Notes under the pieces: model-generated
The model's database searches: none
Told to the model about the DNA's origin: nothing
The model's input: the letters and a program-made list of their open reading frames with translations, nothing else
Program-made: the position numbers and the translations under genes
NCBI GenBank assembly: GCA_964036045.1
Contig: OZ038381.1
Location: forward strand, 132,625,708-132,689,707
From: Eutreptiella sp. 'Long Island Sound 2002'
Lineage: Eukaryota; Euglenozoa; Euglenophyceae; Eutreptiales; Eutreptiaceae
DNA length: 64,000 nt
Direction: 5' to 3'
Shown: one piece after another, positions 1 to 63,505 of the stretch
Position numbering within the stretch: position 1 is the first letter of the stretch
Layout: each line of letters opens with the position of its first letter

Positions 1-1767
1 CACGTGGGCGAAGACCGCTGGCGCGATGCGGCCCAGGATGAGCGTCCACACCAGCTTGACCTCGGTGGTGGCGCATACTATGGGCCGCCAGTTCCCCGGC
101 TGCGCCCAGTCCCCCTTTTTGTAGAGGGGGTGGACCAGGTTGGCCCACTCAGGGGGGATGGGCGTGGCGCCCGTGACGATGTCCCACAGGCGGGCTGCCA
201 GGCGGCGTTTGATGGGCAGGGTGAGACGTTGGTATGCTTCGGCCGGCAAACCGTCGACGCCGGGTACGACCCCCTTCTTCAGGCGGTCCAGGGCGCGCTG
301 CAGTTCTGAGATGCTGAAGGGGTCGTGTTCGATGGCGCGCCGCTGTTCCCGGTTGAAGACCCTGGGCACATGCTCGCGGATGGTGTTTCTGGTGTGGGGG
401 TCGAGCTCGGGGAGGGCGTCCCCGTGTTGCGCCTGGAAGCTGTCCAGGACTGCCTGGAGGACGGCGTCGGGGTCATTGGTGAGGCCTCCTTCGGGGGTGC
501 GGACCGCGTGGATGGTACGGCGCCCCGTGTCCTCCAGGATGCGGCTGACGTACCGTAGGGACTTGTACGGCGTGTCGTTTCTGCCGTATCTTTCGCGTTC
601 CTGGGCTGCTGCCGCTATGCGGTGGGCGTGCCATTCCTGGAGTTGGTGGCGGCGGGTGGTGAGGAGCGCACGGAGGTGGGCGTCCCGGTCTCGTGCCTCC
701 GGTGTGCTGGGGCGTAGCAGGGTGGCGAGTTCCCCTTTCGTGGTCCAGATGTCATGGACGAGTTGCTGGAGGGTGAGGTCCGGTGGTGCTCCCGTGTGGT
801 TGGTGTCACGCTCCATGCCGCATGCTTGTGCCGCCCGGCGCATGGCGGTGGTGAGTGTCGGTGCACCCGGGCGGCGTAGGATGGCGTGTAGGGCCCTGTT
901 ATACCTGTGCCAGGCGCCGTGGTCGTCCTCGGCCGGGAACTGCAGTGTGGGAGGGAGGGTGTCGTCTGGCAGGGTGGCTGCGGGTGGGGGTAGGTCGGGG
1001 ATGATGAGGTCGATGTAGAGGGGCCGGTGGCCCGTGCCTGTGGGCGGGAGGTCCCCGTAGGTTGCTTCGTGGACGCGCACCGTGGTTGGGTCCCCGTAGC
1101 ACGTGTCGATGCGGGATGGGTGGGTGCCGGCTTGGTGGGGGTAATGGGAGGGTGTGCCGGTGAGCCCTGCCGTGAGGTCGGTGAGGCCCAGCTGGTGCAT
1201 GGCGTCCCGGACAGCTATGTCGGTGGCTGTGGGTGGGCCGGTGCGGTCGTCGTCGGTGGGAGCGGCGTTTAGGTCGCCTATGATGATGGTGGGTGCCAGG
1301 AGGGAGAGTCGGCGGTACGCCAGGCTCAGGGTGTCCAGGAAGTCCTTGGTCTCCTCCCCGAACGGGACGTGCGTGAGCAGCACGTTTAGCTGCCATCCGG
1401 GCCCCACGCATTCGTACGCCCCGAGGCGACCATCCACTCCGAGGTCGGGGTGGGCATGTACCGTGACCGATGTCTTGTGGTAGAGGGGTACCCCCCGTTC
1501 CCAGTGGGCGTGATATTTGTTCCCCTCTGGGTCCAGGATTGGTGCTGGTTCGGGTTGGTCCGCTTTGCGGAGGGCTTGCTCCAGGAACCCCAGGAGGTCT
1601 GCGCCTTGGGGGTGCGGCCCGGGCATGGCTTGCAGTGTGGCGGCCTTGGTGGGGTCGTAGGTGACCGCGGGCTCGTTGAGGATGTTGATGCGGGCGTGGG
1701 CTTCCGCAGGCGCCGGTTTCTGGGGACCGGTAGTTGGGGGGGCGGGCCGTGTCCGGCCCTGGCCCCG
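1..1767 (-). CDS. LINE ORF2: AP endonuclease plus reverse transcriptase (partial, runs off window)
   Basis: The frame is open for 589 codons, from directly after the ORF1 stop to the window edge. The endonuclease comes first: GDLNA at about residue 165 (near 1261-1278), then SRID, then GHRPL in place of the usual SDHRPL. Reverse transcriptase starts near residue 500 with PGVDGLPAEAYQ (about 227-265), followed by PLYKKGD and NWRPI (about 85-120), both typical of non-LTR reverse transcriptases. The YxDD box and everything after it lie outside the window. There is no ATG between the ORF1 stop and the endonuclease start; the first in-frame Met is about 47 codons in. The ORF is therefore probably reached by readthrough. 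It would nick target DNA and reverse-transcribe the element RNA. No internal stop or frameshift is visible, so the element looks young. The family call is firm; the clade cannot be decided. Confidence 0.9.
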
Positions 1768-1770
1768 TCA
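1762..1770 (-). promoter_or_regulatory. Putative stop-readthrough site, LINE ORF1/ORF2 (TGA CGG GGC)
   Basis: ORF1 ends in TGA and ORF2 continues in the same frame with no other stop, giving TGA-CGG-GGC-CAG. A stop followed by CGG is a known leaky context in several plant and animal RNA viruses. The same STOP-NGG-RGC pattern occurs at the gag/pol boundary of four LTR elements in this window. Confidence 0.65.
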
Positions 1771-4700
1771 GGCGTTGAGGAGGTCGATGACGCCCTGAGC
1801 TGCGGGTGCCCTGCGGTTCCGCTTCTGGGGTTGGGGTAGGGCCCATGCATTGTGGACTTCGCCCGTGTACTCGGTGCCGGTGAGGTGCTCCGTGTCGGGG
1901 GTGCACAGCTGCATGGGGACCATCTCACGACCGGCTTGGTCTCGCCAGAGTTCGATGGTGCGCCCCAGCTTCTTGTCGTTGGGGGTGGCCGGGTCCCACT
2001 TGACGTTGATCTTGAACCCCTGGTGGTCCCCGGTGACGCGGTACCGGTGCTTGACCTCCCCTGCGGCCCATATCCACTTGGAGGGGCCCGCGGCCGTGGG
2101 GTACTCGAAGGGCAGCTGCACCCGGGTGTTGATGGCGTATTCGGGATACAGGGCAGCGGCTTCCTCTTTGGTCCAGCTCTTCGGCTTGGCCCTTGGCTTT
2201 GGCGCGGGTTTGGCCTGTGTGGAGGCCTTGCGCTTTTGCGCACCTTGGCGGCGTCGGGCAGCGGGTTGTCCCCGTTGGGGAGGTGCGCCCTGGGGCCGCT
2301 GTACGGGTGCGTGGCCCGGTGCAAACACGGGGTGTTCGCGTGCGGCTGGGACGTCGGGCTTGGACGTGGGGACGGGGTCCGCCAGTTGGAACACTTGCTT
2401 GGTCATGAGGCCAAGCACTTCCTCGGCCTCCTGCAGGGCGTCGGGCGGGTCCGTGGGCCAGGTGAGGAGCCGGTGCCCGGTGCCTGCCCCGTGGCGGCGC
2501 ATGTGGGCCGTGTAGCGGGTGGCGTGGCGTGTCCACGCTGGGGTGCGTTCCGGGGGGAGGGGGCCTTCTGGCGCCCCCTGCGCCCAGTAGAGGGCGTAGT
2601 GCAGCGCTTCCCAGGCTGCCTCTGGGGCGTGGGGGATGCGTGCGGCGAGTCGCAAGCGGTCTCCTCCGCGTGGTGGGGGCGGGACTTCGCCGTCGGGGGC
2701 GTGTGCCGTTGCCCGTCTGACCTTGCCGTGGTCGTCCCATTCCACCGTCCACCAGGTGTCCCGGTGTTTGAGGATGTGGACCTCCGTGGTGGCCGGGGGG
2801 GCGTCCATGGCGTCCCAGCTGACGAGTTGGATGGGGCGGACCGCAGGGTGGGTCTTCGGGGGTGCTCGCATGTTGAGGATTTGGTGGATGTCCTCGGCGG
2901 TGGGGCCCGTGTCGGGGGGGTCCTGCGCTGCTTGGGCTAGAGGTGGGGAGGGGCGGTCCTCCCAGAGGCGGGATGCGGATGCCGTGGCGTACATGGCTGC
3001 GATCAGGACGTGTTCCGTCAGCCCTTCCACCATGAGGTGGTTTTCCCCCTCCAGGTCTCGGGGGATGGCGGCTTCCGCCTTTAGGGTGAGGAGTGCGATG
3101 GCGCGTTTGGGTCCAGGTGTGGCGTGTGTCGGCTCATCTGGCGGGCGTCCGTCGGATGGGGTGTGGGGGGGGCGCTTCTGGAAGGGGGATGGTCCCACCG
3201 CCAGGTGCTCGACAAGGTGTAGTGGTATGGCGTGGTGGCGGTCCGCCGCGGGCAGGAGGTAGGGGTGTGGGTCTCCGGGCACCGTGCCGAGGAATATGCC
3301 CCCCCTGTAGGTAGGGGTGGGCAGGGGTTGCTGCAGAGCGCCTGCGCATGGTAGCGCGCACCGAGGGTTGCAGTGGGTGCATGGGGCTGTTATGGGGTGC
3401 GGTACCGCGTACACGGTGAAGGGCCCTACCGCTCGCTGGATGTGGCGGGGGATGATGTTGCGGAGGTCCGCCACCCGTGCCGTGCGGCCTTCGCCATAGT
3501 ATATCCAGAGCGTGTCCTCCAGTGCCATTTTGGGGCGTAGTTTGCGAGCCAGTAGGTTCAAGGTGCTTTTGTGGGTGGCCTCGGTGATGGTGCCGGGCCC
3601 AGCGTTAATGCGTGGGAGCAGGTGGCTTTGGTGTTGTGCTGCGGCCCGTCTGCGGGCGGTGTGGAGGGCGGTGCTGTCGGCGGGAGGGGGCGCGTGGTGG
3701 GTGGGCCTTTTGCGTGGGGTCGGGGCGACGTGTAGGGGGTGCTTCCATGCCGGGCGTGGGTGGTGTTGCGGTGGCTGGAGGCCAGGGTAGGTGGTGAAGG
3801 TGTATACGGTGATGGGGGAGCGCTCATGCGTGGCCTGGAGGTAGTAGTGGTCGCGACCCGTGTTGTGGGTGACGATGACGTTGGGCGTTGGTATGTCGTA
3901 GTGGAGCGCGGTATTGGGTAGTTGTTTGGTGATGCGTGCCGTCGCGTCCCCTGTTTTGGGGGCGGTGTCGTGGGGCACGAGGATGTGGACTGCCCACGCA
4001 TCGTGGGCGGGGAGGTCGAGGTCCGGTAGGGTGGGATGAATGGGGCGTCCCCGGAAGTGTGCGAAAGCTGGGTTGTGGCGTGCCGCCGTTTCCTTGATGA
4101 TGGACGGTGCCCATTGGGGTGGCGCCCCAACTTGCTGGGCCATGGCGGCGACGGCGCGGGCGATCGCCGTGAGGTCTGGGCCGATGCCAGGCTGGTCTGC
4201 CGGTGGCTGCAGGCCCCCTTCTGGTGCGGGGTGGTGCCACCATAGGGTGTAGCCCTTTTGTGTGTTATCGTGGGGGGTGTGCACGAGGCCTTGGTGGTTG
4301 GAGATGGCGGTCTTGAGGGCTTCCGCTGCCTCGCGGTGGAGGGTGCGCGTGTAGGCCCAGACTCCGGTGGGGGGGGCCGCCCCGGTGTGGGATTCGGCCG
4401 TGGTGGGGGCCGGTTCGAGGGTGTGACTGGTGAGGGAGGGTCTGTGCAGCCCTTCGTGCAGGGAGGCGCACACGTGTGCCCACCTGTCCGCCCATCCCTG
4501 TTGGGCGCTTCCTGTGTCTGCTCCTGTGGGTAGTCGCACGATGACCACGTGCCAGGGGTGTGACCCCGGTACTACGGTGGGGGGTGTGGTGTGCTCGTGA
4601 GCGTGTAGCCATACTGCGGTGTCCGCGTTCGCCGTCACGTAGTCCTCTCCTTCCGCTGTGTGGACGTTTTCGACGGCGGCCTCTCCCTCCAGGGTGAGGA

Positions 4701-6564
4701 GGAGGTGTGTGCCGGGGGGCTGCGCGTGCGTCTCCGCGTCCCGGAGCCACAGGTACGTGAGCGCCACGGCGCCGGGGAGGATTTCCCCCCACGTGAAGGT
4801 GCCTTCGGGTGATGCCCACTGCAGGGGCAGTGTGCGGCGTCCCCGCGAGTCGTTGGTGGCGTGGTAGTCGTGGGGGAGGTGACGTTTGGTGAGCCGGTGC
4901 GGCATGCGTTCGGTGGTGGCCGTGGGGGGGTCCCAATTACATTCCTCCGGTGGGGGTGCGTCTGCGTCGTCCTCCTGGGGCTGGGCCAGCGGCAGCGCCT
5001 GTGCATTGGGTGCGGCGTCGGGTAATCCGCTGTGCGTGAGGGTGTAGAAGCCCTCGGGGGTGAGTTGGAGGACGATGTCCCACTTCGCCGTGTGCTCTGG
5101 GGACCACTGGTGGGGCCCGTCCTGCGGTCGGTGGAGGGTGACCTGGTGGCCCCATCTCCAGCTGTGGTAGGCGAGGAGGCTGAGGACGGTGTCTTGCTCC
5201 GGGTCCTCCACGCTTTCCATGTATGCCGTCATGTCGGTGACGTCGACGGCGTACTCGTCCTCCCATTCTTGTGTGGGGGTGCCTGGAGGGGGGGGGGCGG
5301 TGGTGTACCCGTGGAGTCCTGGCCCCGTGACGTCGGGCAGGTCGCGCTCGAGTGACGCCCGGTACTCGGCGGGCCCGTTGCTGGCTTCGTGGGTGGGGTG
5401 GTGGCGCCGCAGGGCGTTGGACAGGTGCGTCCAGGGCGCCCTCTCGCGGGGGGGGGGGCGCGGGGGGGCATTTTGCGGGTTGGGGCCTGCGGGGCTGCTT
5501 GCTGTGGGCTCGAGCTCCGGCGGGGTGAGGTCCATATGATGCTCCGTGTCCTCCGTGTGTTGGAGTTCCAGTTCTAGCAGGCTGTCGATGTCCAGGGCCA
5601 TGGGGTCATCTTGCGTGTTCACGTGCTGGGGTGTTGCGTCATGGCACGGTGGGCGTGTGATGCTGGTGTTCGGGGCATGTGCGGCGGCCGGTGCGGGGTC
5701 GTGCGTCGGGGGAGGCGCGCCGTTTGGCGTGGCTGTGGTGTGTGGCTGCCCGCTGGTGGCTGTCCTGGCCGGTGGTGTTGCCCCTGTGTGCGGTTCGGGT
5801 TGTGGCCGGTGGTGGGTGCCGAGCTGGCGCGAGGTGTGCGGGGTTTCCAGGGGTGGTGCCGGTGGGGTGGGGTGCGGGGTCGGTGGGGCGTGGCTTCGTT
5901 CCTGTGTTGGTGGGCTGTGGTGTCCCGTGCCCCCGGGTGGGGGAGGGGGGTGCGGTGCGGTATGGTGGTGTTGTGCTGTGTGGTGGCCTTCCCGTTGGGG
6001 GGGGGGGGCACCGTGTCCAGGTCTGGTGGGGTGGGCTGTCGCCTGTGGTTTGTCCTCTGGTGGTGCGGGGCAGCCCCGCGTGGTCTCTTGATCGTTCTCC
6101 TGGTGTGTTTCAGTACGTGGCCTGTGCGGGGTCGGTGTGGCGTAGGGCCTGGGGTCCCCTGGGGCGGGGTGTGCGGGACTGGAGTGTCGCAACCAGGGGG
6201 GTGTGGTCGTGTGGTGCTTGGGGGTGCCGGCCCGCCGTTGGGTGGGTCCGTTGGTGTGGGGTATTGCGCTTGCGGGGTCCGCGGGTCGGTGGGTCGCGGC
6301 TGCTTGGGCGTGTTGTGGCCCCGGTGCGGTGCCCGCGGGTGGTGTGTGGCGGTGTGTGGCTGGGGTGTATCGTTTCCACGGTGGGAGGGGGGCTATGTGC
6401 TCGGGTGTGGGGTGGGCCCGCGGTAGGATGCCGGCGGGTAGCGGGTGTCGGGGCCGCACTGTGGGTGGGTATTCCGCGGCGTCCCCTTGGTGCGTCCCGT
6501 GGTGGCCTCTGGCCGGCCGGCTGAAGGGGGTTTTTGGGGTGTACCGCATCCATGGGGGCAGCAT
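1768..6564 (-). CDS. LINE ORF1: giant Pro/His/Thr-rich protein, 1598 aa
   Basis: This is a single open frame ending in TGA (1768-1770) and in phase with ORF2. The N-terminal third is low-complexity Pro/His/Thr/Ala, partly a result of the strand's T-poor composition. The middle looks structured, with ordinary hydrophobic spacing and a Cys cluster CTHCNPRCALPC (CX2CX3CX3C). The last about 110 residues, after a basic linker, form a compact region rich in W, Y, V and K that could be a Tudor- or chromo-like fold; that is only a guess from appearance. No RRM, esterase or CCHC knuckle was recognised. Position suggests an RNA-binding ORF1 protein, but 1598 aa is several times the usual LINE ORF1 length. 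The true start is uncertain: the first Met is in low-complexity sequence and a start further inside is possible. Confidence 0.7.
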   Translation of the reverse strand: MLPPWMRYTPKTPFSRPARGHHGTHQGDAAEYPPTVRPRHPLPAGILPRAHPTPEHIAPLPPWKRYTPATHRHTPPAGTAPGPQHAQAAATHRPADPASAIPHTNGPTQRRAGTPKHHTTTPPWLRHSSPAHPAPGDPRPYATPTPHRPRTETHQENDQETTRGCPAPPEDKPQATAHPTRPGHGAPPPQREGHHTAQHHHTAPHPPPPPGGTGHHSPPTQERSHAPPTPHPTPPAPPLETPHTSRQLGTHHRPQPEPHTGATPPARTATSGQPHTTATPNGAPPPTHDPAPAAAHAPNTSITRPPCHDATPQHVNTQDDPMALDIDSLLELELQHTEDTEHHMDLTPPELEPTASSPAGPNPQNAPPRPPPRERAPWTHLSNALRRHHPTHEASNGPAEYRASLERDLPDVTGPGLHGYTTAPPPPGTPTQEWEDEYAVDVTDMTAYMESVEDPEQDTVLSLLAYHSWRWGHQVTLHRPQDGPHQWSPEHTAKWDIVLQLTPEGFYTLTHSGLPDAAPNAQALPLAQPQEDDADAPPPEECNWDPPTATTERMPHRLTKRHLPHDYHATNDSRGRRTLPLQWASPEGTFTWGEILPGAVALTYLWLRDAETHAQPPGTHLLLTLEGEAAVENVHTAEGEDYVTANADTAVWLHAHEHTTPPTVVPGSHPWHVVIVRLPTGADTGSAQQGWADRWAHVCASLHEGLHRPSLTSHTLEPAPTTAESHTGAAPPTGVWAYTRTLHREAAEALKTAISNHQGLVHTPHDNTQKGYTLWWHHPAPEGGLQPPADQPGIGPDLTAIARAVAAMAQQVGAPPQWAPSIIKETAARHNPAFAHFRGRPIHPTLPDLDLPAHDAWAVHILVPHDTAPKTGDATARITKQLPNTALHYDIPTPNVIVTHNTGRDHYYLQATHERSPITVYTFTTYPGLQPPQHHPRPAWKHPLHVAPTPRKRPTHHAPPPADSTALHTARRRAAAQHQSHLLPRINAGPGTITEATHKSTLNLLARKLRPKMALEDTLWIYYGEGRTARVADLRNIIPRHIQRAVGPFTVYAVPHPITAPCTHCNPRCALPCAGALQQPLPTPTYRGGIFLGTVPGDPHPYLLPAADRHHAIPLHLVEHLAVGPSPFQKRPPHTPSDGRPPDEPTHATPGPKRAIALLTLKAEAAIPRDLEGENHLMVEGLTEHVLIAAMYATASASRLWEDRPSPPLAQAAQDPPDTGPTAEDIHQILNMRAPPKTHPAVRPIQLVSWDAMDAPPATTEVHILKHRDTWWTVEWDDHGKVRRATAHAPDGEVPPPPRGGDRLRLAARIPHAPEAAWEALHYALYWAQGAPEGPLPPERTPAWTRHATRYTAHMRRHGAGTGHRLLTWPTDPPDALQEAEEVLGLMTKQVFQLADPVPTSKPDVPAAREHPVFAPGHAPVQRPQGAPPQRGQPAARRRQGAQKRKASTQAKPAPKPRAKPKSWTKEEAAALYPEYAINTRVQLPFEYPTAAGPSKWIWAAGEVKHRYRVTGDHQGFKINVKWDPATPNDKKLGRTIELWRDQAGREMVPMQLCTPDTEHLTGTEYTGEVHNAWALPQPQKRNRRAPAAQGVIDLLNA

Positions 6565-8487
6565 TGTGTGTTGGGGCGCCGCAGCGGTGGGTGCGGCGGG
6601 TTTAGGGGGTGGGGCTTGTGTCGGTGTCGACCGTGTGTTTGGCGGCGGTGTGTCGTGTGTCGTCCTCGGCGGCTCCTCTTGGTGGTCTGTTGTGGTGGTG
6701 CCTGGGGGGTGGTCTTGGGCTTTGCGGTTCCTGGGAGGGTGCGGGACATGCGGGGTTGGGCTGGCTGGGGGGGGGGGGCGCGCGTGTGTGGGCTTGCGTG
6801 TTTGCCCTCTGTTCCCCCCGTGGCCCCTTCCTCTGCATGTCCCTTACTCCTCTCTTTTCGCTGGCTTGTTTGGCTTTGTTTTTTTTTTTTTTTGGGGGGG
6901 GGTGGCTGGGGTGCTGTACGTGGGTGTGGGTGTGTGCCGGTGTCGGCTCCCGGTTCTCAGACCGCCAGGGTGGGTGGCTGTGGCTCCTGGTTAGTGTCCG
7001 GGTGGCGTGGCCGGGCGTGGGCGTGCGTGTGGGTGTGTCCGTGGCGTGGGCTGCTGGGGTGGTGGGCAGTGTGGGCGTGGTTGGTTTGTGTGGGTGTCGG
7101 GTATGTGTGCGCCGAAGGCGCAGTGGGTTGGGCTGGGGCACCGTGGGCGATGCAGTGGGTGGAGGTGATGCTGGTGACGCCTACGGGGGGGTGCTGTAGG
7201 CGTCGGAACGGGTCCGTGTTGTTGACGTGGGTGCTTCGGGTGACGCGCCGGGCGGCGACGGGGTTGGTGATGTTGTTGGCGTCATAGGTGACGGGGCGGG
7301 CGCTGGGGGGGCCTGCGGCTCCGGTGGTCGCTGTAAGTGGTGCGGTGGGTGGTGGCGCGACTGGTGGTGCCGGCGGTGTGGGTGTTGCCGGCGACGTCGA
7401 TGGTGAGGGTGCTGTGGGTGATGTCATGGGTGGTGGCGATGTTGATGTGGGTGCTGTAGGTGGTGTGCCGGCTGGTGGCGCCGCTGGTACTGTCCCTACG
7501 TAGGGTGTTGCCGGGGGTGCTGTGGGTGGCGGTGTCGTCGGTGGTGCCGATGGTGAGGGTGACGTAGGCGATGCACTGGGTGGCGGTGTCGTCGGTGGTG
7601 CCGATGGTGAGGGTGACGTAGGCGATGCACTGGGTGACGGTGAGGCCGGTGTGCGCCGTAGGTGACGCGCTGGGCACGGGTGGTGGGGGGCCGGAGGGGG
7701 GTTTGGCGTTGGTGCAACGGGCGATGGTGGCGTTGGTGCTGCAGGTGGTGGCTTGGGCGTTGGTGCTGTCGGTGATGCCGACGGGGTGGTTTGTCTGCCT
7801 GTCTGCCCGCGGAGTCGGTGCCGGTGTTGGGCGGTTGCCTGTGCTTGTGGTGGTCGGTGCGCCGGGCGCTTGGTGGGCGTGGCCGGGCGCGGGTGTGCGT
7901 GTTGGTGTGTACGTGGCGCGGGCTGCGGGGGGTCTGCGGGCGTCGGGTGCGCTGTTGCCGTGCGTGTGGTGGTTTGTGTTGTCTGGTGGAGCGTGGCCGG
8001 TGTGTGCGTTGCGTGGGTGTTGTGGGGTCTGGTCGGCGTGGGTGGTGTCGGTGTGGGTGTTTGGGGTTGGGTGCTGGTTTTGGGCGTGTCGTCGGCGTGG
8101 TGTAGTCGGGCGTGATGGTGGTGCCGCTAGCGGCGTCGATGGTGACGGTGCTGCAGGTGGTAGGGGTGGGACGGTGGTGTTGGCGGTTTCCGGTGTGGGT
8201 GGTGTGAAGTGTGGGGGTGTGGCAGGTGTGGTGCGGGGCGGATGGTGGTGTGCGTGGCGCCGGCGTCGCGAGTGCTGCCGGGGGGGAGGGTGTCGTTGGT
8301 GATGTTGTGGGCGGCCGGTGGTGGGTGGTGGTGGTGGTTGTGGCTGGACTGCTTGGTGGTTGTGGTGTCGGCGGGTGGCTCTGTGTGTGGTGGCGGGTGG
8401 GCGCGCTTGGTGGTGGTGCTGGTGTGTCCTTGCGGGTGGTGTTGGGTGTGGTACCATTGGGCGTGTGGTTTGCGATAACTGAGACGG
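6565..8487. other. A-depleted, G/T-rich non-coding region, probable LINE 5' region
   Basis: I find no credible gene here. The plus strand is strongly depleted in A, so stops (all need A) are rare and several frames stay open by chance. There is a 15-T run followed by 9 G at 6879-6902, and a 54-bp tandem duplication beginning at 7524 and 7578 with a partial third copy at about 7632. It lies immediately 5' of LINE ORF1 and is most simply the 5' UTR of that element, though the 5' boundary is not visible. Confidence 0.6.
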
Positions 8488-25755: not shown

Positions 25756-25823
25756 ACCGCTCGAAAAACCTGATCCCCGATTTTCACGAGGATCCAGAAA
25801 ACCAAGTCCTCCTCTTCGGAGCC

Positions 25824-25832
25824 GCCCCCTTA
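25824..25832 (-). promoter_or_regulatory. Putative gag/pol readthrough site, element B (TAA GGG GGC)
   Basis: gag ends in TAA and the protease frame continues in the same phase without another stop until the LINE junction. The context TAA-GGG-GGC-GGC fits the STOP-NGG-RGC pattern of elements C, D, E and the LINE. Confidence 0.6.
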
Positions 25833-45954: not shown

Positions 45955-48900
45955 TCAGGCACCCCTGGCTGCAATCGCCCGGGTGAGTGCTGCCAAGTCC
46001 GAGACATGGATCTTGGTCTTGTGCTTGCGGATGTACCCCATGAAGGGAGTGTTAATCCGCGGCACCAACGAGGAGACGGGTTTCCAGGTGTCGTGGGACG
46101 GCCCATAGCCTCACCAACGAACCTTGAACTCCAGGCCTCCGGGTGCCGAGGCGTTCGGACGCTGAGCCAGGATCTTCTCGACGGTGTAGTCGTCCTGCTC
46201 AGCATAATCGTCGTCCGAATCGGCCTCATGTGCAGCATAGCTCAGGGACACATGTTGGCCACGGAGGTCGGGTTCCCGCACACGGAGTTGACTCTCGTGG
46301 CGCTCCCGGAACTGTCCGTGAACCACCTTGATGTGGTAGGTGTCCTCACCAATCCTGCGGACCACCTCTCCGGGTGTGAACCAGGTCTTGGTGCGGTGGG
46401 TGCCCATAGGGCGGGGTCTGATCACCCAAACCGGGTCTCCCACCCTGAACTTCTGCGCTGTCGAGCTCGGGGCGGACTTCTGACGCTCAGCATGCTCCTT
46501 CTCGAGCTGCTGGCAGATGTCCCGCGCCGTTTGCTCTTGCCGCGCGAAGAATTCCTTGGCGTCCATAGCCATGCCATCACCAGACAAGGGAAGTCCCCGA
46601 CCCAGGGGGTCCCTGCCGAACAGAATCTGGTGAGGGGACAAACCACCCGGAGTGGGGATGTCATGATGGGCCTTCAGAGCGGGCCACATCTCCTCAAACC
46701 AGTTCCGCGTGGATTGGTGATGTGAATCTTGCGCAGCTTCTCGAACAGCTGCCGTCCAGCCACTTCAGCACGGCCGTTAGACCGGCTGAGATAGGCGACG
46801 CTCTTGGCATGACGTATTCCCATGAGGGAACACATAGCCTTGAACCAGCCACCAGTAAACTGGGGCCCTCGGTCACTGCAAATGGTGCGGGGGATGTCAA
46901 AGACGGTCAGCCAATGACGAATCATCATGACTGCCACTTCCTTGGCAAGCAACCCCTTTTTGCGTGCCGGAACGTCTACTACGTAGCCGCTGTGGCGGTC
47001 CACACAGAGAACCACACAGTCAAAGGTCTCCTTGCCAATGTGCACTTCGGGCATGGAGAAGACGTCCATGGCCACGCTCTCCATGGGCTGGTCAGCAACC
47101 GGGGTCCATTGGGCTTCCCCCTTGACGTTCCGGTTGTCGGGATTGCAGGCCTGACAGACCGAGCAACCCTTCCTGACCTTCTTGATGGCGGTGTAGAGAT
47201 TGATCTGGTCGATCTCGAACCGGCGCTGCATGTCAAGGGCTTGCTTCTTGACCCCTGGGTGCAGCATGTGGTGGTGCCAAGCTTCACATAGCTCGAGCAC
47301 TCGGGACTCTGGTACTAGCAGCTTACCGTTCCGGTAGAGCTTGCCATCTTCCTCAGTCAGCCCCTTTGGCCACTTCTGCCCGTCATCAGGGTCGGTCAGA
47401 GCCCTATACTCGGCCGCAAAGGCCTCAGACTTAGCGTAGTCGTCGGTCCAGTCGTCCTGGAGGCAAGACTCAGGGAAGAGGTGCTTGTCGGACTCAGCTC
47501 CATCAGGGGCGAGTACTCTGACCGCTCTGCCCATCCTCGTTCCGAGGGGGGCATCCGCAGCCATGACTACAAAGCATTTAACACCCTCCTCCTCCATCAG
47601 GCGCTCCATTTCAATGATCCTCTTGGCTTCAGCGGTCTCAGCCTCATCGCCATGGGCAGAGACATCCGTCATGCCCTTGCTGGCGGGATAGGCCCACCTG
47701 CTGTGACAGTCCGCCACGGTGTTGTCCTTTCCAGGAACATACACAACCGTGAGGTCAAACTTGGCCAAGGTCTCATGCCATCTTGCCCGTCGGGAGGCGG
47801 GACCAGAGGGGGTGTCCACGTGCTCCTTGTGCCACGACTGCAGACTCTGATGGTCGGTGCAGACGGTGACGGGATGGAGGGCTATGTACCCAGCCCATTT
47901 CCTGAGAGCCATGACGATGGCATACGCCTCCTTTTGTCGGCGCGTCCACGTCCGTCTCTGGCCTTCGGCCAGGACTCGGCTCCAGAAGGCCACGGGCACG
48001 TGCCTCCCATCGTCAAGCACTTGTTCCAACACAGCGCCAACGGCGTAGTCCGAAGCGTCGGTGCGCAGGACGAACCCTCGGTCGGGATCCACGAGGTGCA
48101 GACCCACTGCGGATAGCAGCGCCTGCTTCATCCCCTCAAAGGCACGGTCGGACTCTTCATTCCAGATCAGAGCCTTCTTGGACCCCTTCTTGGTCTCCTC
48201 TCGGTTGCCCTTGAGCATGGTCGTCATGGGGGCTGCATACTCGGCATACATCCTGATATACCCCGAGTAGTAGTTGCAAAACCCGAGATACGCCCGTAGC
48301 TCAAAGGCCGTCTTTGGCTTTTCCCAGTGCTCAGTCGCAGCCACCTTGCCAGGTATGGGCTTTCGCTGCCCGTTCCCGACTACGTGGCCAGCGAAGACCA
48401 CCTCGCTTACCGCAATGGTGGCCCTGTCACTGCTGCCCGTGAGTTTGTGCCGAACCAGAAGGTCCAGCACTCGAGCGACGTCCCTCTCGTATGCCTCCAG
48501 GAGCTCCTCGTAGCTCATACTGGGGTCCCTGGACACCGATGATAGGTCGTCCACGAAGGGGTCCGCACAGTCAAGCACGGCTCAAGCAGGTTCTCCAGCA
48601 TCCGCTGAAAAGCCGCATTGCCGTTGGTAACGCCCATGGGCATCACCTTCCACTGGAGAGTTCCAAGTGGGGTGCTCATGGCTGTGCAGGCACGGGACTC
48701 CTCGGCGAGAGGCATCTGATGATAACCATGTTTCAGGTCAATCACCGTGAAGATCCTCCGCCGGTGTTGTTTTTGCAGCATGTCCTCAATAAGGGGCAGC
48801 GTATAGCTGTCGTGCTGCGTTTGGGCGTTTAGGCCGCGGTAGTCGACCACGAGCCGCCACTCACCGGCCACCTTCTTGGGGACGACGAAGCATGGAGAGG

Positions 48901-50925
48901 CCCACTCGGAGTGGCACGGCTCAAGCCAGCCTCTCTCGATGAAGTCACGGAGGATCTTCTCCATGGCCTCCTTCCTCTCGCCCCTCAGGGCAAACTCCCG
49001 GTGCCGATACACACGGGGGTCCTGCTTCAGTCGTATCTTGGCCTTGCCATACAGTCCACGCACCGGTGGGGGAAACACAGGCTTTCCGCTGAAGAAGGTA
49101 TCCCCATACTTCTGCTTCAGCCTGGCCCTCAATGCCTGGATCTTGGGGCAATCATCGGACTCCGCCTTGGCCTTTCTGGGCACCTGAACCACTGAGCTTA
49201 CTTGAGGGGTAGCGACCCCGCTCGGTTTTGGCTCAGGCGGTCTTTCCAGGTGGCCCAAAGGGCCATTTCTGGTCTTGCCTCGGAACAGATCGCTGTAGGT
49301 GGGTGGGTTCCCGCCGATTGGCTCGTCCTGGCTGGACAAGTGGTCCAGTACCCTCCTTACGAAGGTATCTCCGTCAAAGGAACCAGAGACGATGGCGTCC
49401 ACTTCCCACCAGGCTTTGTCCTGGCCCTTGCCCTCAGGGTGGCTTCCCCAGTTGTAACAGGGCTGATCCATATACCCCTGAACCAGATGCAACTGCTCTT
49501 CCGTGAGGGGGTCTTCCGATTCTCTGATGTCAACAGGGGGAACCGCAAAGCATTGCCGCCATGGCTCCGCTATGATGCGGTTGACACACACGAGATCCGT
49601 GGCGTCGGCCTGATCAAGGCCCCCATCCACATAGTGGAATTCCGTTGGCCATCTCTGGGGTGGCATGGGCTGTCCCTTAGCGTCCTGATAGACACTCTCT
49701 CCACCAGGTAGGACGACCTTGTTTAAGGTCATGTTGGTCAATGAGACTACCCAATGTCGGGTACTTTCCTCCTCGGTGCATCCCATAGGAACGACCAGCA
49801 CTGCCTTGGAGCGGTTGTTGCGGATCTTTGCTACCGCCCTTGGAATGTCCCATCGAGGGCAAAGGATCCACATCAATCCCTGATGCGGACTCCAGTGCTT
49901 CTTCCACGCGGAGTCCTGGGCGCTCCAGTACTTCTCACAAAACCGAAGATGGGCGGAGGTTCCTGAAGAGAACGCATCCAGGGCCAGATCCGAAGCTCCC
50001 AGGTCCGCGACCGCTCGGCTCGCCACTTCCGGCATTACGCCGTACTCCTGGTTTGCTGGCCCAGTTGGCTCAGTGCCCAGTGCGGCCAATCGGAGATGAT
50101 TGCGTTCCGGGTGGTTCCATTGGCATTCCACATGGTGCTCAGGTGACGAAAGCCACGAGAGCTGGTCGTCCTGGTACAGGGTCATTGAGGCCTGGGCCGG
50201 GAGAACGCCGGAGTCCGTCTCCATCATGAAGTCGTACCCAACAATCATGTCCCAGTCCATCTCGGCCTCGTAGAAGCGACCTTGCAGGAGGATTTCCTTG
50301 CCGAGGTCTGGCTCAGTTCACGGTGGTTCAGGAACTGCAGCCCGATGGCAGCTTCCTTCGTGCCTCCCACCATGTACTGGCCGTTCGCCACCTTCAGCCT
50401 GACAGGTTTCCGACTGTCGGTCAAACACTCTGGTGGAAGTAGGCCAGCCTTGACCAAGCTGACCTGTGCTCCCGTGTCGACCAACACGTCGAAGACCTTT
50501 TCCACTTCCCCGCATAAGGCACGGACCTTAAGGTGCAACTGCCGCTCACGCCCAACTCGGCGCACGGCGTGCAAGCTCAGGATCTCCTGCCGTTCCAGAA
50601 GCTCCACGAGCGACTGGTGCAGGTCGTGGACAATGGGCTCAGGCTGCCCATCTGCAGCATCCAGCTGCGGTCCGGGTGATCCTCCGATACTCTCGGATAG
50701 ATCTTGAAGTACATCAAACACATTCTTGGTCGCGAAGGATGGACGGGTGCAAGGGTTCGTGCCTTCACTTGCCCTCACCCCGCCACCGCGACTGGGTGCC
50801 GGACCGGGCCTGCCGCCCGCGGCAATCCCTTTGTGCTCACGGACTCCCGATTGGGATGGTGTGGCGCCTCCCACGACACCATCCTGCGACCGCCCTAGCT
50901 GGGGCCCTTAACTGCAGGGGCTCCG
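45955..50925 (-). pseudogene. Element D pol: PR, Dam-like, RT, RNase H, integrase, chromodomain
   Basis: Protease VDTGAQVSLV (near 50480) and IVGYDFM. Dam-like domain with LALDAFSSG, an HWSPHQGLMWILCPRWDI segment replacing WINPPF, and KAVLVVPMG (about 49750-49990). RT: CFVVPKKVAGEWRLVVDYRGLN, LKHGYHQMPL, MPMGVTNGNAAF and catalytic FVDD (near 48550). RNase H: RTDASDYAVGAVLEQ (near 48060). Integrase: HHMLHPG with CSVCQAC, then MDVFS, CSDRGPQF and GRAEVAG (D-D-E intact). Chromodomain at 46180-46010 (DDYTVEKI, FKVRW, GYGPSHDTW). Frameshifts near 50290, 48577 and 46700, TAA at 50908-50910 and TGA at 46111-46113 disable it. Confidence 0.9.
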
Positions 50926-50928
50926 CTA
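50920..50928 (-). promoter_or_regulatory. Putative gag/pol readthrough site, element D (TAG CGG AGC)
   Basis: The knuckle-bearing gag tail ends in TAG in phase with the protease frame. Context TAG-CGG-AGC-CCC. A TAA six codons later (50908-50910) is probably a decay mutation, since it is absent from C and E. Confidence 0.6.
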
Positions 50929-53900
50929 GGGGGCGTCGGTTGTGGAAGTAGGGGTATTCTCTTCCGCAACAACCTCGTTGACACCCTTCTTCCTCCTATT
51001 CCTAGGCTTCTTGTCCTTGTCCTTGTTCTGGTCGTTCTGGTTGTTCTCCTTGTTCTTGTTGTCCGACCTGGGGACCCAGTTCCTCTTGATCTCCTGGATC
51101 TCCTTGGCCAACTCGGTCCCCACCGACATCAGCTTGGAGAGTTTGTCGCTGTCCACCTCCACTTTGGCCTCCCGGATACCCGCAGGTGCACCCTTCTTCG
51201 ACCCGTGCGCCTTCTTGTAGGCCTCCGTGTCGGCCTGGTGGGTGGGGCATGTTCGGTGGTCATGGTTGAAGCCTTTCTTCCTCCCATAACACACGAAACA
51301 GCCCTGAGGGTGAGCTTGTATAAACTCCCCAAAGGACAGCGGAGGGTTGCCAATGCGGCGAGGGTCCCTCTTCTGCTTCTTCTTCCAACCCGGCTGCAGG
51401 GGCTTCTAGCTTCCCCGGTTGTTCCCCGCGCCGTTGTGGGCCACGAAGGCACAAACGGCCATCTCGGCGGGCTCATCGTTGTCGTCATCGTCGACGAGAG
51501 TCTCATCGCCGTCGGCTCCCGCTGGGTCCATGGCAGCTTCCCCGCCAGGCCCCTCGCCAACGTAGTTGACGTCGCGGTCGCCGGGCCTCAACCCGCGGGT
51601 GTGGTGGAGGTTCCGGTACTCCTTGAGCACCTCCTCTCCAACCCACTCCAGGATCTCGTCGCAGCTCATCCGCGCCGGGATGGCCTGCAGACGGATGGTC
51701 CAGCCGCTCACGTCGCACTCGTCAAGGCGCCACATCGCGGTCTTCTCGCGATCGCCCGAGACGGTGATGAGGAGAGCGTTCCGCAGGGAGTGCCGTTTGA
51801 CATCCCGGGCCACGCTCGTCCTCGTCAAAGCCACCACGTTCGTATGATACTCTTTGGGGAGCATCATCTTGACCGTGTGGTTGGACTTGGCCCTCTTGGC
51901 TTCCTCCTTGGTGACCCTCTTGATCCATGCTTCCGGCAGCATGGAGAGCAGGCGAGCCTGCTCGTCACCCTCGTTCCAGTCCTCCACGTTGCGGCGGAAG
52001 AGGGTGTATTGCCCTCGGAAGTCTCGCCAGTCCCGTAGGCGGATCTCCCGTCCATCATGCTGAAGCTTGATGTACTTCCACCGCTTGGCAGCCACCTGCG
52101 GAGCGTCCACCCGCTCCTGCTCGTTGAGCCACTTCTTGGCTTCCTTGAGGGTCTTGATTTTTCCCTCCTTGGCCGCCACGAAGTACAGCTCTTGGAGCAC
52201 TTCCGGCAGGCGGTACCTGAACCGTCTGAAGACATATTTCTCCGCATCCGTGGGATCCATGTCTTCAGTGACGGTCACCCCCCAATCGTCCAGCTTCTCC
52301 AAGAAGCGGTCGAGGTTGAGGGGGTTGCCATCGTACATGGGGGTCTTGATGGCCTTCAGGTCTTCCCACACGGCGGCATCGGCGGCCTTAGAGACCATGA
52401 ATGCCGGCCGCGAGGTCGACCGAGGTTCCCATCGGCCTCTCCCACGGACTCCCACGTCTGCCACTTCCATCTCCTCCCCAGTATCCGCGTGGCCACGCCG
52501 TGCTTCCTCGATGTACGCTGAACCTAGACGTTCACGCCGTACTCTTTCCATGTATGCCTCCTCATCACGGCGCCGGCGGCTGCGTTCAGCGGCCTCCCGT
52601 CGTACACCACGCGGCGGGGAGATGTCAAACTCCTCCAGGTCCAGGTCTAGGTCCTCGCCTCCACCGACATCCCACTCCACGTCTCCCCTGGGGACCTCAT
52701 CCCTGAGTCCACCATAACGTCCACCAGCCATGGGGATTGGCTCCGGGGCTGGTGCGGGGCGTCGGGGGCGTACCGGTGTCCGCAATGGAGCACGGCGGCT
52801 GTGGTACTCCGCGCTGAGCCACTCATCACGCCAATCCTCACTGCCACTGCCGGGCGGCACGCGCTGGTTGCGGCGGCCCGCGCTGTGGTGAGAGGGGGCG
52901 GTGAGAGAGGGGGCACTGGCGCTGGGGCGACTCCTGGGGGCTCCGCTGGGGGCGTGGGGTCTGCCTGGACCTGGTCCGGGTCCCCAGCCGTCGTCCGACG
53001 AGCCAGACTCCAGGGGTGGGTGGTCGCTGCCGACGCTCCCACGGGCTTCCGGCGCGTCGAGCCTCCGCTGCAGGCCGCTGATGACCTTGTTCAGCGACCT
53101 GGTCTCGCCCCTGGCGATGTCCAGCAGCTTCTGGGTGGCGGTGGCGACCTGGGCGCTCTTGACCATCTCGATCTTGGCGATGTTCAGCTCCCTCTGTGCG
53201 CGCGCGGCGACCCTGGCGATGCGAGTCATCTCGCCCTTGCCCGTGTCTACCTCACGCTCGAGGGACTGGACCCTCCTGCGGAGGTAGACAATCCACCGCC
53301 GGGTGGCATCCGGGTCGCCGTCCCCTGGTGGGTCGTCGGGGTCCCCAGGGGGTCCTCCAGGAGGGCCTCCGCCGGGTCCGCCCGGTCCAGGGGGTCCTCC
53401 TCCGCCAGGGGGTCCGCCTCCGGGGGGTCCACCTGGTGGGCGTCCTCCAGGGGGTCCTGATGGTCCTCCGCCAGGGGGTCCCCGTGGATCTCCACCAGGT
53501 CGCCTCGGTGGGTCCGAGGATGGGGGCTTCGGCGTGTAGTCGAAGTCCATGTCCTCATCCTCGTCCATGTCGCCCCACCTAGACGTCTCGGTCTCGGAAG
53601 ACTCCTGGCTCCGGTAGGGAGGAGGGGGATCCTCATCCTCACCTTTCGCCTCCATGGGGACGTCTCCGCCTCTTCCGCCAGCCACTCCTCGGCGATGTCA
53701 GCGGCCTCGTTCATCCCCGTCGCTGGCGGTGAAGAAGGGGTCACTGTCGTGGGGGTGTCCGCCCGCTGGCCTCCGTGGCCTCTCGGGGGTCTTCCCCTTA
53801 CCCTTCCTCCGTCGGTAGGCGGTGGGGCCACTGCTCCCACTGCTGCCTGTGTCGACCTTTCCCAGCGTCATCTTGGAGGAGGCGTCCCCTTCGAAAAGCT

Positions 53901-55291
53901 TTCGAAGGGTCTCCACTCGTGATCCTCCCGGGGGAGTCTCGCGGCGGAGTTTGGCCTCTGCCTCCTCCATTGCGGCGGCTGTGGCTGCGGCAGCTCGCCC
54001 TTTGGCTTCCTCCCGGGCACGAGCCGCTTCGGCTTCCCGGGCCTGCTGCAGCCGAGCCTTCTCCGCTTCCAACGCCGCCAACTCCGCCTCCGTCTTGGCC
54101 CTCTCCTCAGCGACCTTCCGTCGCGCGGCCTCGATGGCGTCCTTCTTGGCGGCGTCCGCCTTGGCCTTAGCCGTTGCTTCGGCGTGGGCCCTTTCCTCCG
54201 CCTCCTTCTTTGCCCTCTCTTGGGCAAGCGCCTCTTCCAGCGCCTTCACCTCGGCCTCCTTGCAGGCAATGGCCTCCTGGGTCAGGCGGGCTTCCTCGGC
54301 GGTTGCCGCCACCTCACCCCTGACTCGGGCAGCCACTGCCTCATGGGCGGCCGCAGCCGTGCGAACGGCCGCGATGGCTGCCACGGTCGAGGCGTGGTAG
54401 TCCATGCCTCTGCCCCACTCGGTGGCCTCCTCATGGGCGATGCCGGCGGCGCCCTCCACGGCAGCGTTCTGCTGCGTGGCTCGTTGCCGGGCAACCCGAA
54501 GGTTGCAGGGCACCCCACAGGTGCGCTCGCAGGCGCGCGCCACATCCCTTTGGTGGGGAGCGACGCTGCCGCTGGAGCTGGCCTGGTCGGCCAGCATCCT
54601 CCCGCGGTGGGCCGCCTCCACGTCGCTGCTGGGGCCTGACTTCCTCAGGAGCAGCGGACGGGGCTTGGCCTTGGTCTGCTTGGCAAACTTCCAGGAAGTC
54701 ACCAAGGGTGGTGTGGCCGGGGTGGTGACTGCCATTGGCCCGTTGGGGGCTGTGGGCTGGGGTTCCGCCCCTGGCGCCTTGGGCGGCATCGGCGGCCAGG
54801 GACTCCTGGTACTCCCGCCGCTTCCTGTCCCGCCTCCTGTTCCCGGCGGAACGCTTCTCCTTCCCAGGCGATGCGCCGCTGCTGCTGCTGCCCTGCAGCC
54901 GGCGCTCATTCCGCAGCTCCGGGAACTCCTTCTCGATCATGTCCCACATGGAGACTTTGATCGAGGCGCCCGACGGGTACTCGTTGGGCTTCTCGTCCTC
55001 CTCAAACCCGTCGGGGTGCAGCCCTTCGCCGGGCCTGTCCGGGCGGGTCCAGGTTCTCCAGCGCTTGCGGCGGAAGCGGTACTCATACCCTTCCGTCCGC
55101 AGCCATTCCTCCACTGCCCGCAGGCGGTCCTCGCCCATGTCCTCGCGGAGCTCGAAGCTCCCGGGCATGCCTCCTTCGCACCGGGGATCGCTGTGGCGGT
55201 ACTGCTGCCCCCACAGCAACCCACGCAGTAGGCGCGCCGCATGGGGGTGGGGCTGCGGCCAGGTCTTGCCCGCCTCGTCCCAGTTCACCAT
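50926..55291 (-). pseudogene. Element D gag
   Basis: The N-terminal domain (55291 to about 54760) contains MVNWDEAGKTWPQPHPH and WDMIEKEFPEL. A frameshift near 54760 is followed by ARACERTCGVPCNLR (CX3CX3C) and a long Ala/Glu/Lys coiled-coil (about 54310-53950). After TGA at 53698-53700 the same frame continues with a Pro/Gly-rich hinge (53530-53310), a second helical segment and a capsid core (IKTPMYDGNPLNLDRF near 52330, RRNVEDWNEGDEQARLL near 51980). TAG at 51406-51408 precedes an expanded knuckle CFVCYGRKKGFNHDHRTC (CX2CX8HX4C, about 51245-51300). About 1450 codons in total, unusually large for a Ty3 gag. Confidence 0.85.
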
Positions 55292-61300: not shown

Positions 61301-63502
61301 AGGATGGGTTGTGAACAGCACATCCTCCATCATTCTTTGAAAAAATGAAGGGGCGTTCTTCAGGCCCATGGGCATGACCGTCCATTGGACTGGGCCACAT
61401 GGCGTGCACATACAGGTCAGAGGTCGGCTGTCCTTCCTCAACGGCATTTGGTGAAAGCCGTGACGGAGATCCAGCACAGAAAACAAACGACCTCTCGCCC
61501 TCTTGGCGATTTCCTCCTCAATGAGGGGCAGGGGGTGCGAATCCGCCTTGGTTTCGGCGTTGAGATTGCGAAAATCAACCACCATTCGCCAACCATCAAT
61601 AGTGTTCTGGTCTGCAGGCAGCGGCTTCGGGACTGTAAAGGGTGCACAGCACCATTCGCTGGTCATACAACCCTCAAGCCAACCAAATTCCCTGAGATTT
61701 CTCTCGATGATTTTTCTGAGGATCTCATGTTTATGTCCATGGTTCTCATAAGGGCGCTGTTTTTTTGCCTTGTACCCTTCACGAAGCTCGATGAAGGCTT
61801 CACCGAACTGTCCACGGACAGGGGGGTCCTTGATCAACTTCCCTGAAAGGGTTGTGTCCTTCCGTTCCTCAAAAATCTTTTCTCTTGACTTGGAACACAA
61901 TTCAGTGTCCACCTGATCGCCAGGAATTACTGTCGAAAAAACTTTGGCGACTTCTTCGGCTTTGGCAGGAAGAATCTTCTTACGGATGTCCCTAAACAGG
62001 TCCGTATCAACTGCCTCTTGAAGATAGGTGGGTCGTGTGTCGAAATCCCAGAGATTCTCTTCGTGATCCAGCTCCTCGAAAGGATCCATGAAAGCTTCCA
62101 CAGGGGGTTTTTCATAAAAAACTCTGAATTTGCGGCGCGATTTGGAATTTTTCTTCGCCCGTGCACTGAAGATTCTTTTCGATGTCGATCGTATTGGGGA
62201 AGAGGGAGACGAGGCGGATCCATTGGACGTTGAATCACCTTGGGTATCTGACGAACAAAAATCAGAAAAAATAGATTCATCATCAGTACCACGCTCAACC
62301 TCAGATTCTGACCCAACACAAGAATCAGTACCAGAATCAGCAGAATTAGAGTCAGAAAGCTTTCCATCGACCAGGAATGCAAGCGAACTCCAGGACCGCT
62401 GTGGCAGGGGACCTGTGTCGTCCCTGGCATACAGCTTAATCTTCCTGGGAAGTTCGATGTAATCAACACAAATGTCTTGTAATTCCTGAAACCAAGGCTT
62501 GTCGTCCCACAAGGGCACAACTAATATTGCCTGGGTTTTATCTTGCTTGATCTTGTGGATGACCTGCTGGATTAAGTGAAACGGAGGATTAATCCACAAC
62601 TTCTTGTCCCATTTGTGGGTCCAAGCGTCGCTAAAGTGCTTGTCAAAGCGCTTGTTCATACGGTTAGCAAAGGCATCATACTGGGGCCAAAAGGAATGAT
62701 GTTCATGAAAGTATTCACAAATTGCATCGCGCCATTTGTCGACAACTCTGTAGGATGAAGAGTGCCAGCGCGAAGGGCGTCGTGGCTGGGAGTCCCTACG
62801 AAGACATTCTAACTCTTGGGAATAATCGGCACTCCCATTCACCTCTGCAATGGTGACATCTTCACCAAATTTTGGTGTCACCTTTTGCTTCAAAAATTCT
62901 TCTGCACTTTTAAACCCTGCGTGCAAAAAACGAAATTCAGGACGCTCCAAGGGACCTGACTCCAGCAAAAAACAAGGACGATGACCTACGGGCGCTACCC
63001 TGTTCTTGCGAAGCCAAGGATGGCCCAAATAAAGGTCATACTTTATGTCGGCACGATAGAAGTAGTCATCCTTAAGGACAACTTCTTCCACATTTTGCTC
63101 TTCCCAAAGGTCTTGAGCGACCAAATGAGTTGATATATAACAACCGCGTTGCCCACCTGCGAGAGAATGTCCAGAAACTCCCTCGAGGGTAACAGGATGA
63201 GGCGATTCAAACACGCAGTCGTCGGGTAAGAATGAATTGGATTGGAGATTTACCTCTGATCCATTGTCACACAAACAAGTGGCGAGGTGGAAATTTCCCT
63301 TGCAATCAGAGACCCACAGCTTTGTGACAAACTGACGGGCCCTGTGCTTGGACTGTACACCAACCTCGTCCACTACAACAGAAGGATCCGCTGCCGGATC
63401 CAGGGGAGAGGAGACAAGCGACCCTACATCAAGTAATGGTCGAGATGGAATCTGGGGATCATGCCTGAAATCGCCTGGGGAGGGGCGATTTTCGTGGCTC
63501 CC
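58319..63502 (-). CDS. Element E pol, intact: PR, Dam-like, RT, RNase H, integrase, chromodomain
   Basis: One open frame of about 1728 codons from just after the gag TAG. There is no ATG between the TAG and the protease, so expression by readthrough is likely. Protease shows CDNGSEVNLQ, an unusual Asp-Asn-Gly in place of Asp-Thr/Ser-Gly, and YLGHPWL. Dam-like domain: YDAFANRMNKRFDKHF, LWINPPFHLIQQVIHKI (NPPF near 62580-62591), AILVVPLWDDKPW. RT: LRHGFHQMPL, MPMGLKNAPSFFQ, catalytic YIDD. RNase H: IRTDASRYAIGAVLEQ. Integrase: CAQC half of the zinc finger, then SDFFYL, VVTDSGKEY, PGERAGRS (D-D-E intact) and WEGPFAV. Chromodomain: YELKRIVEARRDAKGEWEF, RCEWRGF, NWEP (about 58740-58620). The best candidate for an active element here. 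Confidence 0.93.
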   Translation of the reverse strand, partial: GSHENRPSPGDFRHDPQIPSRPLLDVGSLVSSPLDPAADPSVVVDEVGVQSKHRARQFVTKLWVSDCKGNFHLATCLCDNGSEVNLQSNSFLPDDCVFESPHPVTLEGVSGHSLAGGQRGCYISTHLVAQDLWEEQNVEEVVLKDDYFYRADIKYDLYLGHPWLRKNRVAPVGHRPCFLLESGPLERPEFRFLHAGFKSAEEFLKQKVTPKFGEDVTIAEVNGSADYSQELECLRRDSQPRRPSRWHSSSYRVVDKWRDAICEYFHEHHSFWPQYDAFANRMNKRFDKHFSDAWTHKWDKKLWINPPFHLIQQVIHKIKQDKTQAILVVPLWDDKPWFQELQDICVDYIELPRKIKLYARDDTGPLPQRSWSSLAFLVDGKLSDSNSADSGTDSCVGSESEVERGTDDESIFSDFCSSDTQGDSTSNGSASSPSSPIRSTSKRIFSARAKKNSKSRRKFRVFYEKPPVEAFMDPFEELDHEENLWDFDTRPTYLQEAVDTDLFRDIRKKILPAKAEEVAKVFSTVIPGDQVDTELCSKSREKIFEERKDTTLSGKLIKDPPVRGQFGEAFIELREGYKAKKQRPYENHGHKHEILRKIIERNLREFGWLEGCMTSEWCCAPFTVPKPLPADQNTIDGWRMVVDFRNLNAETKADSHPLPLIEEEIAKRARGRLFSVLDLRHGFHQMPLRKDSRPLTCMCTPCGPVQWTVMPMGLKNAPSFFQRMMEDVLFTTHPELRAFVSVYIDDIIIATEGEGLTEAELVALHEKQLNQVLDILDANQLICGPKKGKLFLKSVEFCGSLLENGTRRPSPGKLVAIQKWKRPETITELRGFLGCCNFYHTFVPNYAKFAAPLTELLKVGRDAGKAGSKVRVKWTDECEEAFHHLKAALCEVATLHVPQFDRPFYIRTDASRYAIGAVLEQVDEATGDHYPLAFWSRKLAPRQMQWSPREQETYAIICALKKYQSWVGTNRVEVLTDHRSLEYWATEHIDTVASPAGRRARWHEFLSLFDLHVSYLPGKYNTVADALSRWAYPASEGLQSTNIHGTEQDRHVIIEWDQEEKKLIRRACMQCAVKQHALPCHDITAITDPAHAHEICTKTLKVVEKVTDPSSGSVKRFDYTRQVSRFRLIQGIKRRGPAKTPPLPKDSLIIRDWTSDYLQDPMFKEVFGNLQSKDAHKDGIFAEYSLDGGKLWMEGKLCVPDTLAPRVLNWWHKWESPHAHGRRLWLMIKHRLFGSRLYTHCMKVAAGCAQCAVSTPPSAKKHGHLRPHPIPERLFNRVTSDFFYLGELDDEECHWTNKKVNGVLLIQCRHSGYIQVLPCNIESMTGKAAAKWCAQTWMGGWDVPSEVVTDSGKEYTSEWWRELCARLGIHHLRCEIHSHRALPGERAGRSLINMLRKELASEKDFHWLEILFAMLRRYHNTPLYHGLSPNEIVFGRKKCWWNMPLNNPRPCKDASLFLDEVQRADKTVSKLIEKHQADWLWVQNQGRKNPHNFEVDDRVWLRKSETTLDGDDKLLPLWEGPFAVTARLGENRWRIRVDVSREIDVSGDRLKREIPSPKDRVKPLFWTAKHLSDRVIEGGKYELKRIVEARRDAKGEWEFRCEWRGFDSSHNNWEPAQSFVHGYTKGFIDFLKKHPEIGVLLTDCLSKPDRQVESDGKRPVVNRDPALYGPQQPHSRADPSIPPPAVRPAQEPNEDQASSSAADLQRPSRTRARPDRLVVTCIRAWPN

Positions 63503-63505
63503 CTA
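63497..63505 (-). promoter_or_regulatory. Putative gag/pol readthrough site, element E (TAG GGG AGC)
   Basis: gag and pol are in the same frame with only this TAG between them. Context TAG-GGG-AGC-CAC. A stem GGGGAG/CTCCCC can form immediately at and after the stop (about 63478-63503), as in retroviral-type readthrough signals. Confidence 0.7.

Follow-up and report, generated by a model that had tools for sequence, protein, structure and literature searches.

In-frame stop codons ahead of the enzymes of Ty3/gypsy elements and a LINE in Eutreptiella suggest programmed readthrough

LTR retrotransposons of the Tf1/sushi group belong to the Ty3 type. Stop codons lying in frame between gag and pol are already known in other LTR retrotransposons. 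The Tf1/sushi-group elements Tj1, Tosmo1-3, and Tcry1 of fission yeasts are described as carrying such a stop with conserved bases around it, and the Tj1 stop is reported to be essential for transposition (PMC10085805). Candidates with an in-frame gag/pol stop are also listed among gypsy-type elements of rice (PMC2754532), and in Tca2 of Candida albicans, gag and pol are separated by a UGA that may have a pseudoknot on its 3′ side (PMC2194720). In the Tca2 report, the flanking sequence alone gave no readthrough in S. cerevisiae, which counsels caution about claims made from sequence only (PMC2194720). In RNA viruses, type II readthrough is described for alphaviruses, tobraviruses, and coltiviruses, where UGA is followed by CGG or CUA and, in most cases, by a stem-loop about 8 nt downstream (PMC3542737). 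Type III combines UAG, followed by a 3′ G or a purine-rich stretch and including UAG-GGR, with structure; gammaretroviruses use type III with UAG-G and a pseudoknot, and epsilonretroviruses have UAG-R and an extended stem-loop (PMC3542737). For LINEs, the described route to ORF2 in SART1 and L1 is coupled reinitiation (PMC5972666), and our literature search found no LINE using stop readthrough.

The DNA analyzed here, called the window, is a stretch of 64,000 nucleotides from Eutreptiella sp. 'Long Island Sound 2002' (contig OZ038381.1); the assembly searched with it comprises 2.28 Gb in 2205 contigs. According to an earlier note, five unrelated retroelements in the window, a LINE and the elements B, C, D, and E, share the context STOP-NGG-RGC between two ORFs that are in phase across the stop. 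All five nine-base contexts are present where they were reported (Table 1). However, four of the elements are relatives of one another: B, C, D, and E are Ty3/gypsy elements (C by its gag) and therefore not independent. Both this kinship of four elements out of five and the lack of a polymerase in C weaken the proposed convergence of unrelated elements. Readthrough itself fares better. From the sequences, a Ty3/gypsy clade and one LINE family probably express their enzymes by programmed stop-codon readthrough; as an expression strategy, readthrough has good support in E and the LINE, and it is plausible in B and D. Scans of viral contigs and a scan of genome contigs found no relatives.

Table 1. 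Features of the retroelements and of their stop junctions, in window coordinates.
Feature	Position	Strand	Remarks
LINE ORF2 start with endonuclease	1..1767	-	Pfam Exo_endo_phos and flank L010
LINE predicted extended stem-loop, GGGGC-CA-GGGCCG-GACA-CGGCCC-GCCCC	1739..1766	-	1 nt after stop
LINE in-frame TGA, then CGG GGC	1768..1770	-	TGA in all 100 listed of 965 copies
LINE ORF1 frame, 1691 codons stop to stop	1771..6843	-	Open to the stop
Insert in B protease with LINE-like fragment	23785..25755	-	Flanked by 14-base repeat GTTTTTCGAGCGGT
B in-frame TAA, then GGG GGC	25830..25832	-	Relative L034: TAG GGG GAC
B gag, 443 codons	25833..27161	-	CCHC zinc knuckle read by eye
C gag frame	39259..41163	+	Stops at 40387 and 40711, both Trp in relative L043
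C TAG, then AGG AGC	41164..41166	+	Polymerase homology absent downstream
D protease motif (50487) and pol, shifted frames	46677..50487	-	Domain and motif matches
D TAG, then CGG AGC	50926..50928	-	TAA next at 50910-50908
D frame holding gag	50929..54936	-	C-gag homology from about 52404 down; stops 53700, 51408
E pol, 1727 codons	58322..63502	-	Protease motif, Dam-like domain, RT, RNase H, integrase, chromodomain
E predicted hairpin, AAATCGCC-CCTCCCCA-GGCGATTT	63468..63491	-	11 nt after stop
E in-frame TAG, then GGG AGC	63503..63505	-	TAG in 99 of 100 listed copies, TAA in one
E gag, last 165 codons	63506..64000	-	Frame open 758 codons into flank

The E element, whose 5′ end lies outside the window, has a single stop in the 2485 codons of its joined gag and pol frame, and the two parts are in phase across it, as had been claimed. 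Its pol follows the Ty3/gypsy domain order of protease, RT, RNase H, and integrase: RT and RNase H score above cutoff, the integrase core reaches 29.3 bits against a cutoff of 32.6, the protease motif was found by pattern, and the chromodomain match is weak. The junction occurs in 3851 genome copies at up to two anchor mismatches. The 100 listed copies (exact anchors, all on C1) have TAG in 99 cases, TAA in one, and no sense codon, and NGG-RGC fits 99 of them. Twenty copies were fetched, 16 of which are open to both edges of the locus (504 codons before the stop and 506 after it) and four are not. Genome-wide, with exact anchors and first-base changes counted, 13 copies have a sense codon (nine CAG, two GAG, and two AAG). 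None of six close relatives found by protein search, which are cluster representatives of 0.55-1.75 times the query length, extends upstream of the stop. A distant relative, P0007 (36%), has gag-pol in a single frame. Between protease and RT, E pol also has a Dam-like match (62318-62785, PF05869, E 2e-4, below the curated cutoff), and a stretch related to this region is present in B at 25% identity.

The LINE also has one stop, in the 3465 codons of its joined ORF1 and ORF2 frame, and its in-phase arrangement likewise stands; the ORF2 frame of 1774 codons extends past the window edge into the flank. Its class is given by an AP-type endonuclease in the window copy, where the Pfam match begins at residue 53, and by RVT_1 (PF00078) in the relatives P0008 and P0009; a FADD motif was read by eye in the flank. 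The junction was found in 965 genome copies, 174 of them with exact anchors; the 100 of these that were read (C1 to C7) fit NGG-RGC in 95 cases. P0105, which represents an ORF1 cluster of 377 members, stops at the residue where the LINE ORF1 does. P0110, a cluster of one member, has Trp at the stop position. By our own reading, the ORFs are fused in frame in the distant relative P0096 (45% identity), and P0024, P0100, and P0109 are relatives that bridge in another frame. Thus, the earlier note's expectation that other copies would keep the stop and its context was mostly borne out among the E and LINE copies listed, and sense codons, named there as a counterargument, occur in rare copies (the 13 first-base changes in E and P0110 in the LINE). 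Because the copies of both families are young and alike, conservation within each family mostly reflects a recent common ancestor.

More distant comparisons come from other Ty3 families. P0004 represents a sister family of E; it shares 57% identity with E across the searched region, and its genome search gave 44 matches (40 of 52919 candidates scored). Five listed copies have frames of 1727 or 1728 aa; only the C14 copy has no stop inside the match (1728 codons open), the other four having one to three. The junction in that copy was predicted beforehand from the layout of E to lie at C14:2417185, and the 181 bases there hold a stop at the predicted place and a second stop nine bases on. All eight copies shown, of 193 sites, have a stop as the second triplet (six TAA and two TAG). 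The first is TAT in the seven other copies shown, and the double stop was rejected as a feature of the family, which has a conserved stop three codons from the place expected. AGG-CGC belonged to the anchor used in this search, so that variation was possible at the stop triplets only. In another Ty3 family, L048, gag, TAG-GAG-TGC, and protease are in phase (L048:2311-2600). In L036 (L036:1-2100), a relative of family A, which the earlier note leaves unnamed, gag and protease overlap in different frames by our own reading, which suggests frameshifting in family A. On this reading, with gag and pol in different frames, two or more strategies are in use in the genome.

The remaining window copies are damaged to different degrees. 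In B, the protease begins after the gag stop and is then split by an insert of about 2 kb, with a protease motif near 23772, beyond the insert and in another frame. An out-of-phase reading of B was rejected on the basis of its relative L034 from the 200-kb sample: there, gag, TAG-GGG-GAC, and protease share one frame, with a further stop between. The in-phase claim for B thus holds through L034, although the window copy itself runs into the insert. The stop is kept in this pair, as TAA in B and TAG in L034. The LINE-like fragment in the insert gives a weak RNase H match (E 0.024), the rest having been read by eye. For D, phase is kept up to the protease, but the frame meets four stops (53700, 51408, 50928, and 50910) and changes after the protease; D is a decayed element. 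For C, whose gag is homologous to that of D, the in-phase claim fails, no polymerase homology having been found after the stop. With Trp in L043 at both positions, the C stops at 40387 and 40711 represent decay, and the two in-frame TGA codons suggest G-to-A changes. For these reasons, C was set aside as evidence of readthrough. A second stop common to C (40711) and D (51408) was also considered and dropped, its C part not being supported by L043. The region 41301-41782 of C is 97% like 55646-56129.

The window contains other repeats as well. Two direct repeats of 1145 bases (28517-29661 and 35288-36432) differ at three positions and enclose tandem arrays with units of 149-344 bases. The layout of the whole (28517-36432) resembles that of a young element bounded by terminal repeats; one long frame inside it was scanned and had no Pfam match. 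Next to a Ty3 element, 9324-11132 consists of tandem arrays with units of 65 and 229 bases, where long ORFs are probably artefacts of repetition.

Predicted RNA structure follows the stop in some of the families. Folding energy was calculated from +3 to three end points (+48, +63, and +83) and compared with 500 dinucleotide shuffles. For the LINE, in which the predicted inner stem begins 8 nt after the stop, p was 0.006 at +63, 0.054 at +48, and 0.042 at +83; for E, the corresponding values were 0.026, 0.084, and 0.128. In L048, where a stem-loop is predicted, they were 0.010, 0.004, and 0.032, and in the P0004 family 0.07, 0.006, and 0.028. D (p 0.96), C (0.37), B (0.15), and L034 (0.12) gave no clear structure at +63. 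The combined p at +63 for seven junctions without L034 is 5e-4, uncorrected for the choice of length, and the strength of the fold signal varies with the length taken. Stretches starting at +9 reach a z of only -1.1 to -1.3 for the LINE and E. Within the same element, windows folding as well make up 1/450 in the LINE, 11% in E, and 18% in L048. For the LINE, E, and the P0004 family, the folds to +63 place the bases directly behind the stop in the 5′ arm of the outer stem, and pairing in this predicted arm may explain part of the shared NGG-NGC.

If these junctions work by readthrough, most ribosomes would halt at the stop and yield gag or ORF1, and a few would insert an amino acid there and go on to translate pol or ORF2. 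Three things would make up the signal: the stop itself, the adjoining 3′ bases, and a predicted stem-loop starting 0-2 nt on, with its inner stem at about 8-11 nt. In the LINE, this would be UGA-CGG with an extended stem-loop of the viral type II; in E, UAG-GGG with a hairpin resembling type III. The frames, the conservation of the stop in the copies read, and the computed folds come directly from the sequences, and from them we infer ribosome passage, its frequency, and the decoding tRNA. The likeness of the NGG-RGC contexts would stem from descent among the Ty3 elements and perhaps from the 5′ arm of the predicted stem-loop. Readthrough may be ancestral to this Ty3 clade.

The comparison with known systems differs between the two families. 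The LINE fits type II in both sequence and predicted structure, with UGA-CGG and a predicted inner stem at 8 nt; unlike the viruses of that type, it is a non-LTR retrotransposon with the signal between ORF1 and ORF2. It resembles SART1 and L1, as described, in having two ORFs on one RNA, but its ORFs are in phase, separated by one stop, and have no AUG close to that stop. E fits the sequence part of type III. It shares with gamma- and epsilonretroviruses a UAG with a purine next and the phase from gag to pol, and it may share a 3′ structure, but it is a Ty3 element. The fission yeast elements are described as sharing GAA-TGA-CT, whereas the Ty3 elements here have TAG or TAA, mostly with NGG next, and a predicted stem-loop.

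Several other explanations can be weighed against readthrough. If ribosomes terminated and reinitiated downstream, as in SART1 or L1, pol or ORF2 would be made as a separate protein. This mode is documented for LINEs (PMC5972666), and the ATG at residue 48 of the LINE ORF2 is the start in 30 of the 40 printed alignments that begin before residue 60 (97 database hits, in a search whose reach ends at fusions of 1030 aa), a start that a gene caller would choose anyway. Yet this is the first in-frame ATG of the LINE, and it lies inside the endonuclease region, which begins near residue 27 by our own reading, such that initiation there would cut into the enzyme. In E, the first in-frame ATG is pol residue 282, 281 codons in and past the protease motif at residue 79. 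The earlier observation that no ATG precedes the enzyme domains in these two elements therefore stands. In addition, reinitiation needs no shared phase, and yet E, the LINE, L034, and L048 are in phase, as is D up to the protease; we regard reinitiation as unlikely. The stop could instead be a passenger mutation of a master copy, with enzymes supplied in trans by other copies. The homogeneity within families and the existence of sense-codon copies would agree with this, but a stop near the same place in the 57%-identical P0004 family, as TAA or TAG, and again in B and L034, would not; nor would a pol that is open for 1727 codons in E and for 1728 in one P0004-family copy. A passenger origin is accordingly improbable. 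Removal of the stop by splicing or editing in a fraction of transcripts is very improbable, as E and the LINE are open in frame on both sides up to the stop.

The broadest proposal of the earlier note was that the host decodes STOP-NGG-RGC leakily throughout, extending cellular proteins as well. In the window, 3063 stop triplets were counted, and NGG-RGC comes next in 19; in the 200-kb sample, it does so after 45 of 11637 (0.39%). Among the 51 window stops between long frames (at least 120 open codons before and at least 100 after, a length limit that D misses), four match: those of the LINE, B, C, and E. This enrichment is not a test, because the motif was derived from the same sites. Three junctions were found afterwards, with one copy read freely per family: TAA-AGG-CGC in the P0004 family, TAG-GAG-TGC in L048, and TAG-GGG-GAC in L034. 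The strict motif fits none of the three. A looser STOP-NRG-NGC, a relaxation chosen after these junctions had been seen, fits two of them, against a background of 104 of 11637 in the 200-kb sample, and there may be a weak shared preference for it. The bases close to the motif in several families speak for a host-wide rule, but the failure of the strict motif at all three later junctions, the change of frame in family A, and the shared descent of the Ty3 elements speak against it. The rule in its strict form is not supported by these junctions or by family A, and we consider host-wide leakiness of this kind very improbable.

Programmed readthrough remains the preferred explanation for E and the LINE. 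A bolder version of it can be offered tentatively, as a possibility that we do not favor: a LINE and several Ty3 lineages would each have settled on STOP-N(A/G)G-NGC, which would also form the base of a stem-loop, since termination in this host would be unusually leaky at such sites, and the LINE would be the first known to express ORF2 by viral type II readthrough.

The analysis replaces an over-broad host-wide rule with a narrower claim, which is easily testable given many, similar copies. A Ty3 family with 3851 junction copies found, together with its relatives and a LINE, thereby joins the elements in which readthrough apparently sets how much structural protein is made relative to enzyme. 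If true, the LINE case would carry a signal known from viral translation over to non-LTR retrotransposons.
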